Positions 3,653-36,526 of a stretch of 64,000 nt of DNA are shown here, in pieces. The position numbers were made by a program, and so were the translations under genes. Location: the NCBI GenBank assembly GCA_016125005.1, contig WGMQ01000005.1:1-64000 (forward strand). The letters are read 5' to 3'. Origin of the DNA: a bacterium. GTDB lineage: Bacteria > Sumerlaeota > Sumerlaeia > SLMS01. The stretch's first letter is position 1; every line of letters begins with the position of its first letter. The notes beneath the pieces were generated by a model. It was not told where the DNA came from. It saw only the letters and a program-made list of their open reading frames with translations, and searched no databases.

Positions 3653-6600
3653 ATGATTTCTCGTGATGTAGCGTTCAGCGTCGGTCGTCGCGCGCGGTAT
3701 TTGGTGCTTGTTGCGATGCTGTTCATCTCTGTGGGCCGGGTCGTCGGGGCCACAAATCTGGCGCCAGTCCTGAACATCACGGCGCCGGCGGGCAACCAAA
3801 CGGTGCCGCACACGACCACCACCTACGAGGTTCTGGGGAGCGCCACCGATGAGGACGGTCAGGTGGCCAGCATCCAGTGGCAGGTGAATGGCGGGGCTGT
3901 CCAATCCACGACCAGCACGCTCGAATGGCGCCTCGTTCTGCCGCTGTCATTCGGAGGGAATGTTCTGGATGCCTGGGCGATAGACGATAGAGGAGAATCG
4001 AGCGCCACGGTGCGACGAACCATCACGCGGTCGGCTCCAAACCTGGCGCCAAGCGTTTCGATAACCACCCCCGCGAACGGAACCGTCTATCCGTATTCAA
4101 CTGACTGGATTGGCGTTGAATGCACTGCGGCGGATTCTGATGGAGGCATTGCCTCTGTGCAGTTATGGATCAACGGTGTACCGCTTACCGTAAGCCGCAA
4201 CGGGACTCGGTGGCAAGGATACGGTTCGCTCGGGATAGGCGAGAACATCATCGAGGCTAGAGCAACAGACAATCTCGGGGCAACGAGCGCGATAGCCCGC
4301 GTGGTCGTCAACCGGGGCGAGACGCGCCTTCCTCCATCGCTTGAGATCGTGGCTCCTGCCGCAGACCTGACCGTTGAGCCAAGCAATTCGAGCAGTTACG
4401 GCATACAAATCAGGGGCACCACAACTGTCACTGACGCTCCAGTCAGCACTGTGCGATGGCGGCAGAATGGCGGGGCGCTCAACTCAGCATTGGGCACAGC
4501 CAGTTGGCAGTTTAATGCGGACCTGATAGTCGGAGTCAATTTCTTCGAGGTGTATGCAGTCGATAGCGCCGGGCTGACCAGTCAGATAAGGACACGGACG
4601 ATCACACGTCCCCCGGCGAATTACCCTCCAGTCGTTGTCTTCAGTCAGCCGTCCGGAGATCAGGAGGTCGAAGCGGACGTCAGCGAGATGCCGATAAGCG
4701 GTTCGGCCTTCGATAGTGACGGGACCGTTGATTTGGTCAGGTGGCGAGTCAACGGTGGGGAACTGCAGTTTGTCACGGGCACCACTGAATGGGCCTTCAC
4801 AGCACCTTTGTCCTTCGGCCTGAATGTGATTGAGGTGGTCGCGGTGGACAATCTCGGTCTGGAAGGTGCGGCGTCGCTGAAGGTGCTGAGGCGTGGCGTC
4901 GCCGCGCCAGCCAATGACTCCTTCTCCAGCGCTACGCTCATTCTATCGCTCTCCGGCACGAGTGGCGCCGAAAATCAGGGAGCATCGCGCGAGGCGGGCG
5001 AGCCCGATCACTGGTCCACCTCGCCAGGGTACGGGACGCTATGGTGGAAATACACGGCGGACGCCATTGCGACCGTCAATTTCAGCACTTGTGGCAGCGG
5101 TATCGACACGGTCATGGCCATGTACCTTGGCGACTCGGTAGACTCGTTGGAGTTGGTCATGCGGAATGACAATTCCAGCTCGTGTCCACCGGCCAGCGGG
5201 ATTCAGTTCACCTCCACCCCCGGGGTTACCTACATAATCGCCGCGGGGAGCTACGACGTGGACTCGAGAGGGACGCTGATCCTCCGATGGACCGTCACCC
5301 CGAACAAGAAGCCTGTTGCGGCGATTACAAGTCCAACGGGCAACACCGATGTCGCCCACAACCTGGAATCGTTCGCGTTCTCCGGCAGAGCTTCCGATGG
5401 GGATGGTCGGGTGACGGGGGTCCGTTGGCGTGTGAATGGCTCCCCCTTCCAAATGGCCACGGGCAGTTATACGTGGGACTTTAGCGCGCCGCTGATAGTG
5501 GGAGAGAATTTGGTCGAGGTTCAGGCCATCGACGATTTAGGTGACGTTGGACCAATTGTCAGCCGCACGATCAACCGTGCGGCAGAGGACTCGTTCTCGC
5601 TCCCGTCCACCTGGTATTTTGCCGAGGGAGCAACGCTGGACTTCCTTCAGACCTTCGTGCTGATGGCCAACCCCTTCCCGGAAACTCGTCGTGTTAGAAT
5701 GGACCTGCTGTTCGAGTCGGGTCCGGCAGACTCGCGCTTCTACGACCTTCCGCCAAATAGCCGCGTGACGGTGGACTTGGAGACTCTAAACCCCACCTAC
5801 AAGGGAGGGGTTTCAACGGTCCTGACGGAGGTCAACGGACAGGGTTTTGCAGCGGAACGAACCATGTATGTGCGCATGGACAGCTCGGGACGTTGGAACG
5901 CCGCCCACGCAGCGTCCGGGGTTGTCTCACCTGAGCCCGAATGGTTCTTTCCGGAAGGATCAACCGGTCAGGCGGGCCCCGCCCAGGCTCCATTCCAGAC
6001 CTTCATCCTGCTGGCGAACCCCCATGCCGTCCCTGTTTCGGTCGATGTAAGCTACTATCCCGAAGGGAAATCTACCATAACTGAGGGTGTGGTCCTGGGG
6101 CCCAAGAGCCGTCTGACCCTCGAACCGGGAAAACGCTTCTCGGCACTCCGGTCTGTGCCGTTCTCCACCCGTGTCAGGTCCACCGGCCCCGAGGGAATCC
6201 TTGGTGAACGGGCCATGTGGTGGTCGGACACGGATTGGGTCTATTCCCCCTTCATGGGCGGGACCGCATCCCCAGGCCTCCCAGAGCTGTCCAATACGTG
6301 GTACTTTGCGGAGGGAGACACGCGGGGGTTCAGCGAGTTCATTTTGCTCGTCAATCCCAACTCAACAACCACGAGAGTCACCCTCAGCTACTCTTCCCAG
6401 CCGTGGGATCTGGCACCCAACTCGAGAACGACAGTGGAAGTACCTTGGCTTCAAGGGTTGAGGCACGGAACAACGATCAAGGCGACAAACCTGATTGCGG
6501 TGGAGCGCTCCATGTACTGGAGCAGAGGTCGTTTCGGTTGGGTTGATGGGCACACCTCGATCGCCTCGCCGCACACCGCTTTGCGCTGGCTTCTCGCCGA

Positions 6601-21611: not shown

Positions 21612-22604
21612 TCACCGTCTCCCGACAGCGATGAAGCTGTCGGGGATGGTCATCCATTCGCCATCGTCGGCCTCGAATCGCCGCCCGGGCAGCACTTCCC
21701 AGCTTTCCAGGGTCAGGCCGGCAGCGAGCATCCAGTCCGCCACCTTCTTCTGGCCGAAACCGAGCCAGCGATGGTGTAGCTGATCCCGCAGCCACGACTC
21801 CTGGTGCTCGACAAAATCGCTGAGGATCAGCACACCGCCCGGCTTGATCCCGGTCGCCAAGCTCGAAACCGCGCGCTCGGGGCGATCCAAGTGGTGAAGG
21901 ACCTGAACCATCGTCACGAGGTCGGACTCGCCCGGCTTCAGGGGAGCCGAGTCCTGCACATCCGCCAAACGGTAGTCCACGTTGTCGAGCCCCGCGGCCT
22001 CCAACTTCTGCCGTGCCAGGCCGAGCATGATCTCTGAGTGATCGATGGCGATCAGCCGACTGGCCCGTTTTCCAAAGAGCTCCAACATGTAGCCGGTCCC
22101 CGTACCCACGTCCGCCACCACCAGCCCGAGCGGGATGAAGGCCTGAAGGATCCCACGTCCGATCGCGTCGCCGAAAAGCGTCGCGCGAAGGTCGTCCCAG
22201 CGATGAGCCAACTGGTCAAAAAAGCTGCCCACCCCCTCGCGACCCCTTTCCTCCATAACGAGGGCAAGGCGCTTGTCGTCGGCGGCGAACTGATCATTGT
22301 CCTTCCAGGCCGCCTCCAAGAGCGGCCAGCACCCCACCACGGCCCCAGGAAGCTGGTCCTGGTCGACTCGGTAGTGCCGCCAGGAACCCGCGCGGCGCTC
22401 GACGATCAGTTTCTCTTCCCGCAGGATCTTCAGGTGATTCGAAATCCGTGGCTGCGCGAGCTGCGTGATGGTCGAAAGCTCGTTCACGGTCAGTTCCTGG
22501 CGGCTGAGCAGCCGCAGGAGGCGAAAACGGGTTTCGTCGGAAAGGGTGCGAAACAGCTCTGTCAGGTCGCGAGCTGAAGGCGCCCGGTCGGGTCGGCGAC
22601 TCAT
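21612..22604 (-). CDS. ArsR-family regulator fused to SAM methyltransferase
   Basis: The 330-residue protein has an N-terminal winged-helix ArsR domain (about 10-85: FRTLSDETRFRLLRLLSRQELTVNELS, QPRISNHLKILREEKLI) and a class I methyltransferase domain (about 125-300) with SAM motif VADVGTGTGYMLELFG (motif I) and IAIDHSEIMLGLARQK (motif II). Such fusions commonly sit near methionine-cycle genes and may act as regulators sensing SAM metabolism. No metal-binding ELCVCDL motif is present in the HTH, so arsenic sensing is unlikely. The gene is read away from the putative oriC, which overlaps its promoter region. Confidence 0.87.
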   Translation of the reverse strand: MSRRPDRAPSARDLTELFRTLSDETRFRLLRLLSRQELTVNELSTITQLAQPRISNHLKILREEKLIVERRAGSWRHYRVDQDQLPGAVVGCWPLLEAAWKDNDQFAADDKRLALVMEERGREGVGSFFDQLAHRWDDLRATLFGDAIGRGILQAFIPLGLVVADVGTGTGYMLELFGKRASRLIAIDHSEIMLGLARQKLEAAGLDNVDYRLADVQDSAPLKPGESDLVTMVQVLHHLDRPERAVSSLATGIKPGGVLILSDFVEHQESWLRDQLHHRWLGFGQKKVADWMLAAGLTLESWEVLPGRRFEADDGEWMTIPDSFIAVGRR

Positions 22605-22639
22605 GGGATACTCCGAAGGCAGATTGCCACGCCCGTGGC

Positions 22640-23145
22640 TCGTCGCAAGGAGGAAGCCGTCTTGAAGACTTAAGGTATTGTTAAGAGAGTCTTTTTTAAA
22701 AGAATCATAGTCTCAATAGAGGAGTGAGAAAACTGTGGAAAAGCGACATAACTCGTTCAAAACCAACAAAATACCCTGTTGGTAACCCCTGTGTGTATCG
22801 GGTGTGGATCAGCTTGGTGGACTGGGGAAGACTCGGCACAGCCGTCATTCCGCGCTGGTTGGGTCGGTCCGGACAAAGGATAACCTGTGGGAATCCAGGG
22901 CGATCACTTTTCCACAAGCCAGAGCCGCAAACGAGCGCGCCTTTCCTACTCTTTCCACAGGCCTCAGGGCACTGATCCGGCTCACACTCCACTCACAGCT
23001 ATTATCCACAGTCCGGGATGGTGCCTGTGAAGAGTGTGAGCGGAGCCATCTAAATACAATATAATCAGCTACTTGATCGCATCATTCAGTGTGCAAAAAC
23101 CGGTGGAGGAACACAAGTTATCCACAGGGCCTGTGGAAAAGACCT
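22640..23145. other. Probable chromosomal replication origin (oriC) with DnaA boxes
   Basis: The 648-bp gene-free interval 22605-23252 carries a cluster of DnaA boxes. Sites matching TTWTNCACA exactly are TTTTCCACA at 22734-22742 (-), 22908-22916 (+) and 23132-23140 (-), and TTATCCACA at 23002-23010 (+) and 23118-23126 (+). One-mismatch sites are at 22803-22811 (TGATCCACA, -) and 22951-22959 (CTTTCCACA, +). AT-rich stretches at about 22668-22728 (with CTTTTTTAAAAG) and 23048-23090 are candidate unwinding elements. parA-parB with a perfect parS lie 12-13 kb away, as expected near an origin. No dnaA, mnmG or rpmH gene is adjacent. No protein-coding gene is supported here. Confidence 0.78.
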
Positions 23146-23252
23146 CCGGGGGTTGGCGCGTCAACTTTGACGCACAGAGTGGGATTCACTTGAATCCGCC
23201 CCGTGCAACGGCTTCACTCCTGCACTCGACACGACCGACCTGACCCAAGCGC

Positions 23253-26099
23253 ATGCCACCGTCCAACAAGGAAATACTCCGCCGCACCATCGACGCCCTT
23301 GAGGCGTCGATGCGTCGCTATCCGGATAACGACAAAATCCTGCTCCAGCTGGCTCTGGCCTACTCGCAGGTGGGTCGCTTCGATCCCGCGGCAGTCGCTG
23401 TTTACACGCGCGCCGTTCAGTTCCATCCCACCGATGTGAAGGTTCAAAAGGCCCTCTCCGTCGCCCATATGGTGAACCAGACTGGGGCCATTGCCCAGTC
23501 CATCGACCGCATCGAGGACCTCGACGAAGCCAGTATTCAGGAGAGCATCGAGAAACTCCTTCGCCTGACACGCGAGTTCCCCGATTCCCCCTACGTGCAC
23601 AAGGCACTGGGGGATCTCCAGCTACTTCGCGGCGAGGAGCGAGATGCGACACAGCATTATCGCTGCGCCCTCGCCCTCGGCATGACCGACATACAGGGGG
23701 TCTGCGACAACTACGAGGCCGTTCGGCGCCTTCGGCGCATTTCCTCAAAAATGGCTATTTTCTTTGCCGACCTTTATCAGCGCCTCGGAAAAGATGAAAT
23801 TGCCAATAAGATATTCCAGGAATTATTCGCCCGAAAAAATACCGATCCCTACGTCCTGGAAAAGTTCACCGAGTTTCTTGCCGGCCGCGTCGAGGAGCAC
23901 TCCCGTGGCGACCAGGAAATCGCGGCGCGCTACGCGCGCCAACTGATCTGGGTGTGGCTGGCCAGAGGTAATGCCGGCGAGGCGATCCAGCGCGCGCGTC
24001 AGCTGGCGCCCGCGGCCATCATCGCCGAGCCCCCGCTCGCAAAGGAACTCTCGCGTCGACTCCTTGCGCTGGAGGATTTCCGTCAGGCGTTCGAGTACCT
24101 CTCGCGAATTCCCCTCGATGACGAGACCAAGAGCATCCTCAACGAAATGGCCGGAATGCTCGAGAAACGCGGTGAGTTCGACACCGCGGTCTATATTCTC
24201 CAGTTCATCAACAACAATGACGAGCTGGCCCGCGAGACCCGACAAAAGCTCGCAGCGAGTTCCGCCCCGCGTGGTCCCGAAGACCTGCACATCGAGATCG
24301 AGACCGAGCTTCAGATGGCGGAGCTTCATTGGAAAAACCGCCGTTGGGATCAGGCATTCGAGCGCTACATGCGCGTGCTGGAACTCGGCTACGAGGACTA
24401 CCGGTCCCTCCTCGAGCCGCTCGACTTGATCATCCAGCGAATCACGGATATCACTCCCGATCAGCTTGCATTCTTGTCCAATTTCTTTTTCGAGCGACGC
24501 GACTGGCGTCGCGCATTGAATTTCGCGCTCCGCGGCCTCGAGCTCGTCGATAACCACGAGGATCCGAACCTCAGCCAGCGTGTCCTCAAATCGTGTGAGC
24601 GAATCCTTCTGGAGGATCCGGAGGACTGCGACGTGCGCCTGGTGCATGGCGACGAGTTGCTCCGGATCGGGAACATAGAGCGCGCCCTTCAGGAGTACAG
24701 AAAGTGCGCGGAAAATCCCGAATTCAAGATGAAGGCCAATCGACGCCTCGCACTCGCCAGCTTCCGGGCCGGTGACCTGCAGGGCGCCTTCGAGCGCTAT
24801 CGCAACCTCCCGATTCTCGAGGCGGAAGACCTCGAGCGTCTATACGACCTTGCGATGGCGTTCTCCGTCCAGGAGCAGTTCAAGGACGCCTTTGAAGCCA
24901 TCAAGCTGGTTCGTGAATACGATCCTCAATTCCGTGACAGTGAAGCGCGTTCCGTGGAGTTTGAGGAGAAAATGAACTCCAGCAATGTGGGCTTCGTCAT
25001 CGATCCCAAGATGCGCGAGCTCATCGGCGATCATAGCATTGGGCGCTACAAATACATCGGTAAAATCGGCTCCGGTGGCATGGGCGTGGTTCACAAGGTC
25101 CTCGATCTGAAAACCAACCAGGTCGTTGCCATGAAGATTCTCCGCGAGGGACTTAGCTCCAGCGGCAAGGCGATCGATCGCTTCTTCCGCGAGGCACGCA
25201 TCGCCGCGACGCTCCGTCACCGAAATATCGTGAATATTCTCGACTACAATATCTCGAATAATTACGGCCAGTCCTACATCGCCATGGAATTCGTCGATGG
25301 CCCGTCGCTCCGGGAAATCATCGAGAAGAAGTTCTCCATGACCGTCGACATTGGCGTTGATGATATCGTCGAGGTTCTCGATTGGTGCAGCCAGCTTTGT
25401 GACGCGCTCGATGCCACGCACAAGAAAGGCATCATCCACCGCGACATCAAGCCGGACAATATCATGCTGGCGCCTGGGTCTCTCATCAAGATCACCGACT
25501 TCGGCATCGTTCACATCGAGGAGGCCACCTTCACACCGACCGGCGCGCTCATCGGCACTCCCCGCTACATGAGTCCCGAGCAGGTGCACGGCGGCCGCAT
25601 CGATGGACGCTCTGACATTTACGCTGTGGGGATTATTCTCTACGAGCTTCTCATCGGATCGCCGCCATTTATTTCCGGCGATATTTCCTACCAGCAGGTG
25701 AACGTCATGCCGACGCCACCCAGGGAAATCTGCCCGACCATATCGCAGAGCGTTGACCGCATCATCATGCGCTGCCTGGAGAAGACTCCGGGGGACCGCT
25801 ATCAGTCCGCGTTGGACCTCAAGAAGGATATAGACGAAGCGTATATACGGCTGGGTGGCGATCCCAAGCGGCGCATGCCATCGGCCGCCGGTTCACGTCC
25901 TGCCGACCCCGCTGCCACTGCTGCGCCGGTCGCACCGATGCCCCTTCGCACACCCGTCCCGGTCCGTAGTCCGATCCCGAATCCCACCGTCGCCAACGAG
26001 GATTCCATCGAGACGCCAACCGGATTCCTCCAAAGACCCCACGGGCCTGCCGAGACCAAGGATGCTTCCCTGGATCTCGACTCGGAACTCGATGTCTGA
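23253..26099 (+). CDS. TPR-Ser/Thr protein kinase
   Basis: The 948-residue cytosolic protein joins an N-terminal TPR solenoid (about 1-560; for example ILLQLALAYSQVGRFDPAAVAVYTRA) to a complete Hanks-type kinase domain (about 596-860). Kinase motifs are intact: glycine loop GSGGMG (about 604-609), Lys628 in VAMKIL, HRDIKPDN (Asp731), DFG (Asp749) and SPEQ. A Pro-rich tail of about 90 residues follows. There is no TM segment or PASTA domain, so it is not a PknB-type peptidoglycan sensor. It overlaps the next membrane-protein gene by 8 nt. No clear ribosome site precedes the ATG. It sits directly beside the probable oriC. Confidence 0.9.
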   Translation: MPPSNKEILRRTIDALEASMRRYPDNDKILLQLALAYSQVGRFDPAAVAVYTRAVQFHPTDVKVQKALSVAHMVNQTGAIAQSIDRIEDLDEASIQESIEKLLRLTREFPDSPYVHKALGDLQLLRGEERDATQHYRCALALGMTDIQGVCDNYEAVRRLRRISSKMAIFFADLYQRLGKDEIANKIFQELFARKNTDPYVLEKFTEFLAGRVEEHSRGDQEIAARYARQLIWVWLARGNAGEAIQRARQLAPAAIIAEPPLAKELSRRLLALEDFRQAFEYLSRIPLDDETKSILNEMAGMLEKRGEFDTAVYILQFINNNDELARETRQKLAASSAPRGPEDLHIEIETELQMAELHWKNRRWDQAFERYMRVLELGYEDYRSLLEPLDLIIQRITDITPDQLAFLSNFFFERRDWRRALNFALRGLELVDNHEDPNLSQRVLKSCERILLEDPEDCDVRLVHGDELLRIGNIERALQEYRKCAENPEFKMKANRRLALASFRAGDLQGAFERYRNLPILEAEDLERLYDLAMAFSVQEQFKDAFEAIKLVREYDPQFRDSEARSVEFEEKMNSSNVGFVIDPKMRELIGDHSIGRYKYIGKIGSGGMGVVHKVLDLKTNQVVAMKILREGLSSSGKAIDRFFREARIAATLRHRNIVNILDYNISNNYGQSYIAMEFVDGPSLREIIEKKFSMTVDIGVDDIVEVLDWCSQLCDALDATHKKGIIHRDIKPDNIMLAPGSLIKITDFGIVHIEEATFTPTGALIGTPRYMSPEQVHGGRIDGRSDIYAVGIILYELLIGSPPFISGDISYQQVNVMPTPPREICPTISQSVDRIIMRCLEKTPGDRYQSALDLKKDIDEAYIRLGGDPKRRMPSAAGSRPADPAATAAPVAPMPLRTPVPVRSPIPNPTVANEDSIETPTGFLQRPHGPAETKDASLDLDSELDV
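24838..24845 (-). repeat. GTATAGAC element 5 (GTCTATAC on plus)
   Basis: Exact octamer in the kinase gene, read CGT CTA TAC GAC (Arg-Leu-Tyr-Asp), with the uncommon Leu codon CTA. Confidence 0.75.
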
Positions 26100-34769: not shown

Positions 34770-35702
34770 TCAATCCGGCAGGCCAATGGCCTCTAGGAAA
34801 CGCTGAAGCTCGTCTGGATCACGGAAGGGAATTTCGACGACGCCGGACTTCTGATCCCTGGAAACCACTCGCACACGGCACCCGAGATGGACCAGCAGTC
34901 GATCTTCCAAGGCTACCGTGTCAAGTGCCTGTTGCTTGGAAGAATTCTTCCCCGACTTATCCGCAGCTTTTCCCGTCCGGGCGGGAGAAGTCTGGAATTT
35001 GGTGGCCAGCTTCTCCGCCTCGCGGACCGAAATGCCGCGATCGACGATCTCCTGGCGGAGACGCTGCCGATAGAAGCTGTCATCGAGCGAGAGAATGGCG
35101 CGTGCATGACCGGCGGTGAGGCGACCGGCCTCAAGATCCTTTAGTGCCTCATCGCCTAACTTTAGTAATCTAAGTGCATTGGCGATAGTCGTGCGATTCT
35201 TGCCGATACGTTGGGCGATCTGCTCCTGCGTCCATCCAAACTGATCGATCAGCGAGCGATAGGCCTTCGCCTCTTCCACCGGGTTCAGATCCTCACGCTG
35301 GACGTTCTCGACGATGGCGATCTCCAGCATTTCCTCGTCGGTCGCCTCGGTGATCTGGGCGGGGATCTCCTTGAGGTTGGCCAGCTGGGCGGCGCGCATG
35401 CGTCGCTCCCCCGCCAGTAGGACGAACTTGGTGGAGTCCTTCTTGTCGGGGATAACGAGGATTGGCTGAAGTACGCCAACCGCAGAGATGGAGGCCGCAA
35501 GTTCCTCCAACTGCTCCTTCCTGAAGAACTGACGCGGCTGACGAGGGTTCGGAACGATGCGATCGATGGGAATGAAGCGAACGTCGCGGCGTTTGGTCAG
35601 GTCCTCGGGGGGCGCATCGGCATTGGCCAGGGGAATTGATGGAGGCTTGGTTAGGAGCGCCCCAAGTCCTTTGCCTAGTGCTTTCTTTCGTGCCATGCTC
35701 AT
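34770..35702 (-). CDS. parB: Chromosome partitioning protein ParB
   Basis: ParB binds parS sites and spreads as a CTP-gated clamp to segregate origins. The 310-residue protein shows VRFIPIDRIVPNPRQPRQFF, the GERRMRAAQLA arginine patch for CTP, ENVQREDLNPVEEAKAY and the helix-turn-helix GWTQEQIAQRIGKNRTTIANALRLLKL. The C-terminal dimer domain is present. The ATG at 35702 overlaps the parA TGA by 4 nt. It lies about 12 kb from the probable oriC. Confidence 0.97.
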   Translation of the reverse strand: MSMARKKALGKGLGALLTKPPSIPLANADAPPEDLTKRRDVRFIPIDRIVPNPRQPRQFFRKEQLEELAASISAVGVLQPILVIPDKKDSTKFVLLAGERRMRAAQLANLKEIPAQITEATDEEMLEIAIVENVQREDLNPVEEAKAYRSLIDQFGWTQEQIAQRIGKNRTTIANALRLLKLGDEALKDLEAGRLTAGHARAILSLDDSFYRQRLRQEIVDRGISVREAEKLATKFQTSPARTGKAADKSGKNSSKQQALDTVALEDRLLVHLGCRVRVVSRDQKSGVVEIPFRDPDELQRFLEAIGLPD

Positions 35703-36526
35703 CGGCGGGCTCCTTTGCGTTGGCCATTACGGATGCGGGAGAGGACTTCCTTGGAGAGCGACTCATAAGCGCGGGCGCCAGCTCCCCATCTCTCGTAGTC
35801 GAAGATGGTTTTCCCGTGGGACGGGCATTCTGCAAGGCGAACTGTGCGCGGGATGAGCGTTTTCAGCACCTTTCCCCCGAAGTGCGTGCGCATGTCCTTG
35901 ATGATTTCCTGACTGAGGTTGGTGCGGAGATCCACCATTGTGAGGACACAGCCAAGCAATTCGAGCGACGGATTGATCTGCTCGATGGTTTCCAGCAGCA
36001 TGGTAAGGCCTTCGAGCGCCAGATACTCGCACTGGACGGGGATGATGACCAGGTCGCTTGCCAGTAGGATGTTGATGGTCAGGAGCCCCAGCGAGGGTGG
36101 GGCGTCGAAAAGGATCACGTCGTGGGGGAAGGATTGGCCCTCAAGATTGCGCTTCAGGACGGTATCGCGATGATCCTTAAGCTGAAGCAGGTCCATCTCG
36201 GCACGAACGAGCGAGATATTGGCAGGAAACAGGTCCAAGCGATCGTATTGCGTGGGAGTGGGCGCGGGCTTTTCTTTCCCAGGCATGAGAAAGTCATAGG
36301 AGCTTGGGTTGGTTGTGTACTTCTCGACACCGACAGCAGTGGTGGCGTTTCCCTGGGGGTCCAGATCGAAGAGAAGGACGCGCCGGTTCAGGAGGGCCAA
36401 CCCATGGGCGAGATTGACCGCTGTCGTCGTTTTGCCCACCCCTCCTTTCTGATTGATGACGGCGATTCGAAGGGGACCGCCGCCGGGTGTTTCACGTGAA
36501 ACAGTGGGTGGGGGAGCAGGAGACAA
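35699..36526 (-). CDS. parA: Chromosome partitioning ATPase ParA (Soj)
   Basis: The 275-residue ATPase has the deviant Walker A INQKGGVGKTTTAVNLAHGL (about 24-43), switch motif FDLDPQGNATTAVG, and IILFDAPPSLGLLTINILLASDLVIIPVQ. It drives segregation of ParB-parS complexes. An extra N-terminus of about 20 residues (MSPAPPPTVSRETPGGG) contains a perfect parS in its codons (TVSRET). It is the first gene of the parA-parB unit, divergent from tRNA-Gln, with an A/T-richer 170-bp gap at 36527-36700. Confidence 0.97.
   Translation of the reverse strand: MSPAPPPTVSRETPGGGPLRIAVINQKGGVGKTTTAVNLAHGLALLNRRVLLFDLDPQGNATTAVGVEKYTTNPSSYDFLMPGKEKPAPTPTQYDRLDLFPANISLVRAEMDLLQLKDHRDTVLKRNLEGQSFPHDVILFDAPPSLGLLTINILLASDLVIIPVQCEYLALEGLTMLLETIEQINPSLELLGCVLTMVDLRTNLSQEIIKDMRTHFGGKVLKTLIPRTVRLAECPSHGKTIFDYERWGAGARAYESLSKEVLSRIRNGQRKGARR
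36488..36503. promoter_or_regulatory. parS site
   Basis: TGTTTCACGTGAAACA is a perfect match to the bacterial chromosomal parS palindrome. It lies in the parA coding region, codons TVSRET, 23 bp from the start. Binding by ParB here would both seed the segregation complex and could repress parA. Confidence 0.93.

Follow-up and report, generated by a model that had tools for sequence, protein, structure and literature searches.

A conserved DnaA-box element apart from dnaA is the probable chromosomal replication origin of a Sumerlaeota bacterium

Introduction

Chromosomal origins that are detached from dnaA are well known as such and represent an ordinary kind of origin. Like E. coli oriC and other origins located away from dnaA, the locus described here carries 9-mer DnaA boxes in both orientations and AT-rich candidate unwinding DNA within a gene-free interval, and dnaA itself lies elsewhere. 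It differs from E. coli oriC in its flanking genes, with no mioC/gidA context, and in that one of its ends bears an inverted pair of boxes, conserved and centred on GGCC. What it shares with the E. coli datA and DARS loci is a gene-free interval in which DnaA boxes cluster; however, in contrast to those loci, the cluster here is the sole one in its assembly, is AT-rich, and is near parABS. In the Bacillus-type arrangement, oriC is found next to dnaA-dnaN and contains a basal unwinding system composed of boxes and DnaA-trios (PMC8287927, PMC6669920). The present locus resembles this type in having a box array beside AT-rich DNA and a parS within about 13-22 kb, but it is not beside dnaA or dnaN and a row of DnaA-trios is not reliably detected.

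In the literature on Sumerlaeota we found no account of DnaA or of replication origins. The DNA analysed here, referred to as the window, comprises positions 1-64000 of a 150-kb contig (C29) of a Sumerlaeota genome (G000), whose assembly contains 4.69 Mb in 112 contigs and is 88.5% complete. The genomes used for comparison were reached through the TPR part of a kinase encoded next to the locus, and all are labelled Candidatus Sumerlaeota, Sumerlaeia or BRC1, with the exception of one bacterial bin.

Results

A dense cluster of DnaA boxes in a gene-free interval

When a DnaA box is defined as an exact match to TTWTNCACA, and a near-box as a site with one mismatch in which CACA is kept, six exact boxes in both orientations are found within 407 bp (22734-23140). 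They sit exactly between two divergent genes, in an interval (22605-23252) in which no convincing ORF was found. The features are as follows:

21612-22604, minus strand: gene for an ArsR-type HTH and methyltransferase protein; same neighbour in G001, G005 and G006
22605-23252, no strand: gene-free interval, putative oriC; 648 bp, GC 52.8% versus 61.9% for the window
22661-22720, no strand: left AT-rich stretch and candidate site of unwinding; its 60 bp are 28% GC, the second-lowest value of the 150-kb contig
22734-22742, minus strand: exact DnaA box TTTTCCACA, the left box, with a counterpart left box in relatives
22803-22811, minus strand: near-box TGATCCACA; one mismatch, CACA kept
22908-22916, plus strand: exact DnaA box TTTTCCACA
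22951-22959, plus strand: near-box CTTTCCACA; one mismatch, CACA kept
22990-23145, plus strand: right half of the element; conserved, and the place where profile R1 (see below) matches
23002-23010, plus strand: exact DnaA box TTATCCACA, the middle box
23046-23105, no strand: second AT-rich stretch, which separates the middle box from the right pair and is likewise a candidate for unwinding; kept in relatives
23090-23098, minus strand: exact DnaA box TTTTGCACA
23118-23126, plus strand: exact DnaA box TTATCCACA, left arm of the conserved inverted pair
23132-23140, minus strand: exact DnaA box TTTTCCACA, right arm of the conserved inverted pair
23253-26099, plus strand: gene for a TPR and Ser/Thr protein kinase; same neighbour in G001, G004, G005 and G006

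A first-pass annotation of this DNA had described five exact boxes and two near-matches in about 410 bp of a gene-less 648-bp interval, beside AT-rich segments, flanked by an ArsR-methyltransferase and a TPR-kinase, and 12-13 kb from parABS. The density of the cluster, the two near-matches (at 22803 on the minus and 22951 on the plus strand), the interval, the AT-rich segments, the identity of both flanking genes and the proximity of parABS are all borne out here, but the count of exact boxes has to be corrected to six.

Such a cluster is far from what chance would provide. The whole window contains 7 exact boxes versus an expected 1.05, and dinucleotide-preserving shuffles of the interval (n=5000) contain a mean of 0.041 and a maximum of 2, so that the six boxes of the real interval are reached in 0/5000 shuffles. 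Across the 4.69-Mb assembly there are 63 exact boxes, the next-best local count after this cluster is 2, and the Poisson expectation for a cluster of this kind anywhere in the assembly is about 2e-10; as the assembly is 88.5% complete, a better box cluster could be missing from it.

Homologues of the TPR/Ser-Thr kinase (about 40-65% identity) are present in most genomes of the class, and the kinase adjoins the box element in the family of G000 only.

AT-rich stretches

Within the left AT-rich stretch, the GC content of 22670-22709 falls to 22%, the second-lowest 40-bp value across the 150-kb contig, and position 23049, in the second stretch, is also among the lowest-GC places of the contig. 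The lowest 40-bp value of all is in a separate AT-rich island at about 93.4-95.2 kb of the same contig (L094:9400-11200), where isolated DnaA boxes are found at 93434 and 93584. We also looked for DnaA-trios, defined as three or more consecutive NAN trios no farther than 16 bp from a box; in most genomes examined the best rows do not beat those in shuffled sequence. As a trio row of the basal unwinding system (BUS) is thus not reliably found, we do not claim the basal-unwinding mode of opening here.

A conserved element whose neighbours change

An ordered element consisting of the left box, the middle box, an AT-rich core and the right inverted pair can be aligned in eight genomes of two families: G000, G001, G004, G005 and G006 from its own family, and G007, G008 and G010 from a sister family. 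In the alignment, AT-rich DNA precedes the left box, the middle box has the form TTWTCCACAG and is often accompanied by a neighbouring second box, and the right inverted pair has the form TTWTCCACA-GGGCCTGTGGAWAA. In G001, G004, G005 and G006 the box region has been retained beside the same kinase, and in the sister family the box clusters are located at G007:C10:35721-35868, G008:C33:35559-35967 and G010:C253 around 4459-4848.

From the right halves of the element in these eight genomes we built a profile, R1, that uses sequence alone; it matches G000 in one place only at E<=0.1, with its palindromic end scoring on the other strand as well. Among genomes outside the building set, it identifies matches in G003 (E 1.7e-7), G012 (2.8e-7), G011 (1.5e-5) and G023 (2.8e-5) and weaker ones in G013 and G032, and the matched places that were inspected are box-dense and intergenic, with 3 to 8 exact boxes; the element of G023 has eight in about 500 bp. 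Two further box-dense places, G019:C61 and G028:C430, were found through the inverted-pair pattern. The R1 search gave no match in G002 or G009, nor in family f6 save for the weakly matching G038. In that family, which includes the complete genome G015, no such cluster was seen near parS or the skew minimum in the stretches sampled. The only triple of exact boxes in the sampled stretches of G015 is at C1 906164-906373, far from both parS and the skew minimum.

The genes beside the element are not the same from family to family: the methyltransferase and TPR-kinase in its own family, SecDF and a peptidase M28 in G008, and mazG and dnaJ in G023 and G032. The order is methyltransferase-PrsW-[element]-kinase in G006, RlmN-PrsW-[element] in G007 and RlmN-[element] in G010, and the PrsW-like neighbour shared by G006 and G007 links the two families, the PrsW of G006 being a by-eye call from its reading frame. 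Past the immediate neighbours there is almost no wider synteny around the element. This change of neighbours favours a function that resides in the DNA.

A lone copy of the inverted box-pair motif is also present on a 32.9-kb contig of G000 (C5:7137-7157; L257:1501-1521), where it is followed by a reading frame that resembles a phage ParB/methylase-type protein, with a further box pair 2.2 kb on (C5:9326-9351); this region is perhaps a mobile element.

parABS nearby and dnaA elsewhere

The genes and site for chromosome segregation that lie near the box cluster are:

34770-35702, minus strand: parB
35699-36526, minus strand: parA
36488-36503, no strand: perfect parS TGTTTCACGTGAAACA, the sole parS-like site (at most one mismatch) in the assembly

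The boxes are 11.6-13.4 kb from parB, parA and parS in G000, and the second ParB-like match in this genome, on contig C48, is weak. Measured from element to parABS on the same contig, the distance is 13.3 kb in G000, 19 kb in G008 and 22 kb in G023; G001 and G007 have the element and parABS on separate contigs.

A single full-length DnaA is encoded on another contig than the boxes (C86:80187-81608). It has domains I, III and IV (N-terminal, ATPase and box-binding; Bac_DnaA_C 6.6e-27) and the signature GGKDHTSIIYACRK. A HAD hydrolase gene on one side and STAS/HATPase genes, not dnaN, rpmH or mnmG, are the neighbours of dnaA, and no exact box was found in the 20 kb around it. In relatives, where the surroundings of dnaA were read, no 4-kb locus holds more than one exact box. 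The box cluster likewise adjoins none of dnaA, dnaN, rpmH and mnmG, as it would in an oriC of the dnaA-dnaN type. In 15/15 genomes in which both could be located (G000, G001, G003-G008, G010, G011, G013, G019, G023, G028 and G032), dnaA and the cluster are on separate contigs, although many of these genomes are fragmented and separate contigs alone are therefore no proof of distance. For G007, the contig ends place dnaA at least 240 kb from the element.

Two other proteins of G000 are of note. The first, of 1380 aa (L099:2249-6391; contig C10), has TPR repeats and a DnaA ATPase domain (Bac_DnaA 4.5e-62), joined to a zinc ribbon of the DnaG type whose match is weak (Pfam E 0.001, which does not reach the cut-off), and is without a box-binding domain. 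Nearly all genomes of the class have DnaA-ATPase matches of this kind in open frames that are long, many of them about 1360-1450 aa, and the protein is possibly a regulator of initiation. The other (L003:1213-1944; contig C49) is a small AAA+ protein whose N-terminus is rich in cysteine; it resembles helicase loaders of the DnaC/DnaI type, and matches of its size recur across the class.

GC skew

In G000 the skew is weak, slightly negative on either side of the element and without a sign change: the fourfold-site skew term is -0.11 on the left (95% interval -0.28 to 0.07) and -0.21 on the right (95% interval -0.27 to -0.14). In G001, the cumulative skew has its minimum at 133.6 kb, no more than about 4 kb from the element (129.8-130.0 kb), although only ~10 kb of contig remains beyond it. 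In G008, skew is strongly negative (about -0.17) up to 21 kb and then ~0 or positive, and the element is at a local minimum, at 36 kb. In G007, skew is strongly positive on both sides of the element and turns near parB on another contig; one inversion, ending at a point somewhere from parB to the element, may have produced this pattern. As skew is mixed across genomes, we set it aside as the main proof of an origin, and the support for an oriC is comparative, not compositional.

The complete but more distant genome G015 has a broad skew minimum at 2.76-2.95 Mb, 0.1-0.3 Mb from its parS (2.647 Mb), and its dnaA is at 1.06 Mb, more than 1.3 Mb off on the circle. We dropped this genome as a guide to origin position because no box cluster is seen near its skew minimum in the stretches sampled.

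Discussion

On the strength of the sequence and its comparison among relatives, we consider that 22660-23145 is very probably where this Sumerlaeota bacterium has its chromosomal oriC, apart from dnaA, and would put the probability at roughly 0.88. An oriC without dnaA was also what the first-pass annotation had proposed, and it is upheld by a cluster that is unique in the assembly, conserved though its neighbours change, and near parABS, with dnaA on another contig. Two of the checks that it suggested, the location of dnaA and a box search in related genomes, agree with the proposal, the former through contig C86 and its box-free surroundings and the latter through the composite element kept in eight genomes and the additional ones found by R1. 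The outcome of a third, the position of the GC-skew minimum, is divided: it is in agreement in G001 and G008, but not in G000, where skew is flat, nor at the element in G007.

In the model that we favour, DnaA, made elsewhere and with its domain IV intact, would bind to the 9-mer box array, whose anchor points would be the inverted pair on the right (23118-23140) together with the middle (23002) and left (22734) boxes. Oligomeric DnaA would then melt the AT-rich stretch at 22661-22720 and/or that at 23046-23105, DnaB helicase would be loaded at the melted stretch, and forks would depart in both directions, with ParB on parS, 13 kb away, segregating the new origins.

Clustered boxes might instead set the timing of initiation while replication starts elsewhere, as at a DnaA-titration or reactivation locus of the datA/DARS kind. 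E. coli datA likewise has several boxes, skew is flat in G000, and the inverted box pair could serve titration; nevertheless, we regard this as unlikely, since the assembly, at 88.5% completeness, offers no other box cluster as the true origin, the element has AT-rich candidate unwinding stretches inside it, and it neighbours the only parABS and, in G001 and G008, coincides with a skew minimum or lies close to one. It is also very unlikely that the element is a DnaA-controlled divergent promoter region of the methyltransferase and TPR-kinase genes and not an origin. The position of the boxes exactly between these two genes would fit such a role, but in the sister and other families the element is beside the unrelated RlmN, PrsW, SecDF/M28 or mazG/dnaJ, and no boxes were found at the sister family's own copies of the methyltransferase and kinase.

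The closeness of parAB to the boxes is reminiscent of plasmids and chromids, on which parAB and nearby boxes also occur, and raises the question of whether the element could be the origin of an integrated plasmid or a secondary replicon. We rejected a plasmid origin, as the element has no match among 72,556 plasmids and its contig also bears pheT, mfd and tRNA-Gln, which indicates that the contig is chromosomal; given in addition that the genome has no clear parB-parS pair but this one and that the element is conserved across families, an origin of this type is extremely improbable.

Returning to a chromosomal oriC, it is tempting to speculate that in one lineage of Sumerlaeota the origin is a self-contained ~400-bp cassette, off dnaA, that has repeatedly acquired new neighbours with its inner box order kept, and that its firing may involve the class-wide protein with a degenerate zinc ribbon, TPR repeats and a DnaA ATPase domain, although we hold this broader proposal to be rather unlikely. 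With the element described here, a phylum whose bacteria are uncultured gains a candidate oriC. As R1 locates the candidate origin in the fragmented genomes of relatives, estimates of growth rate from read depth (peak-to-trough ratios) would be possible for these organisms.
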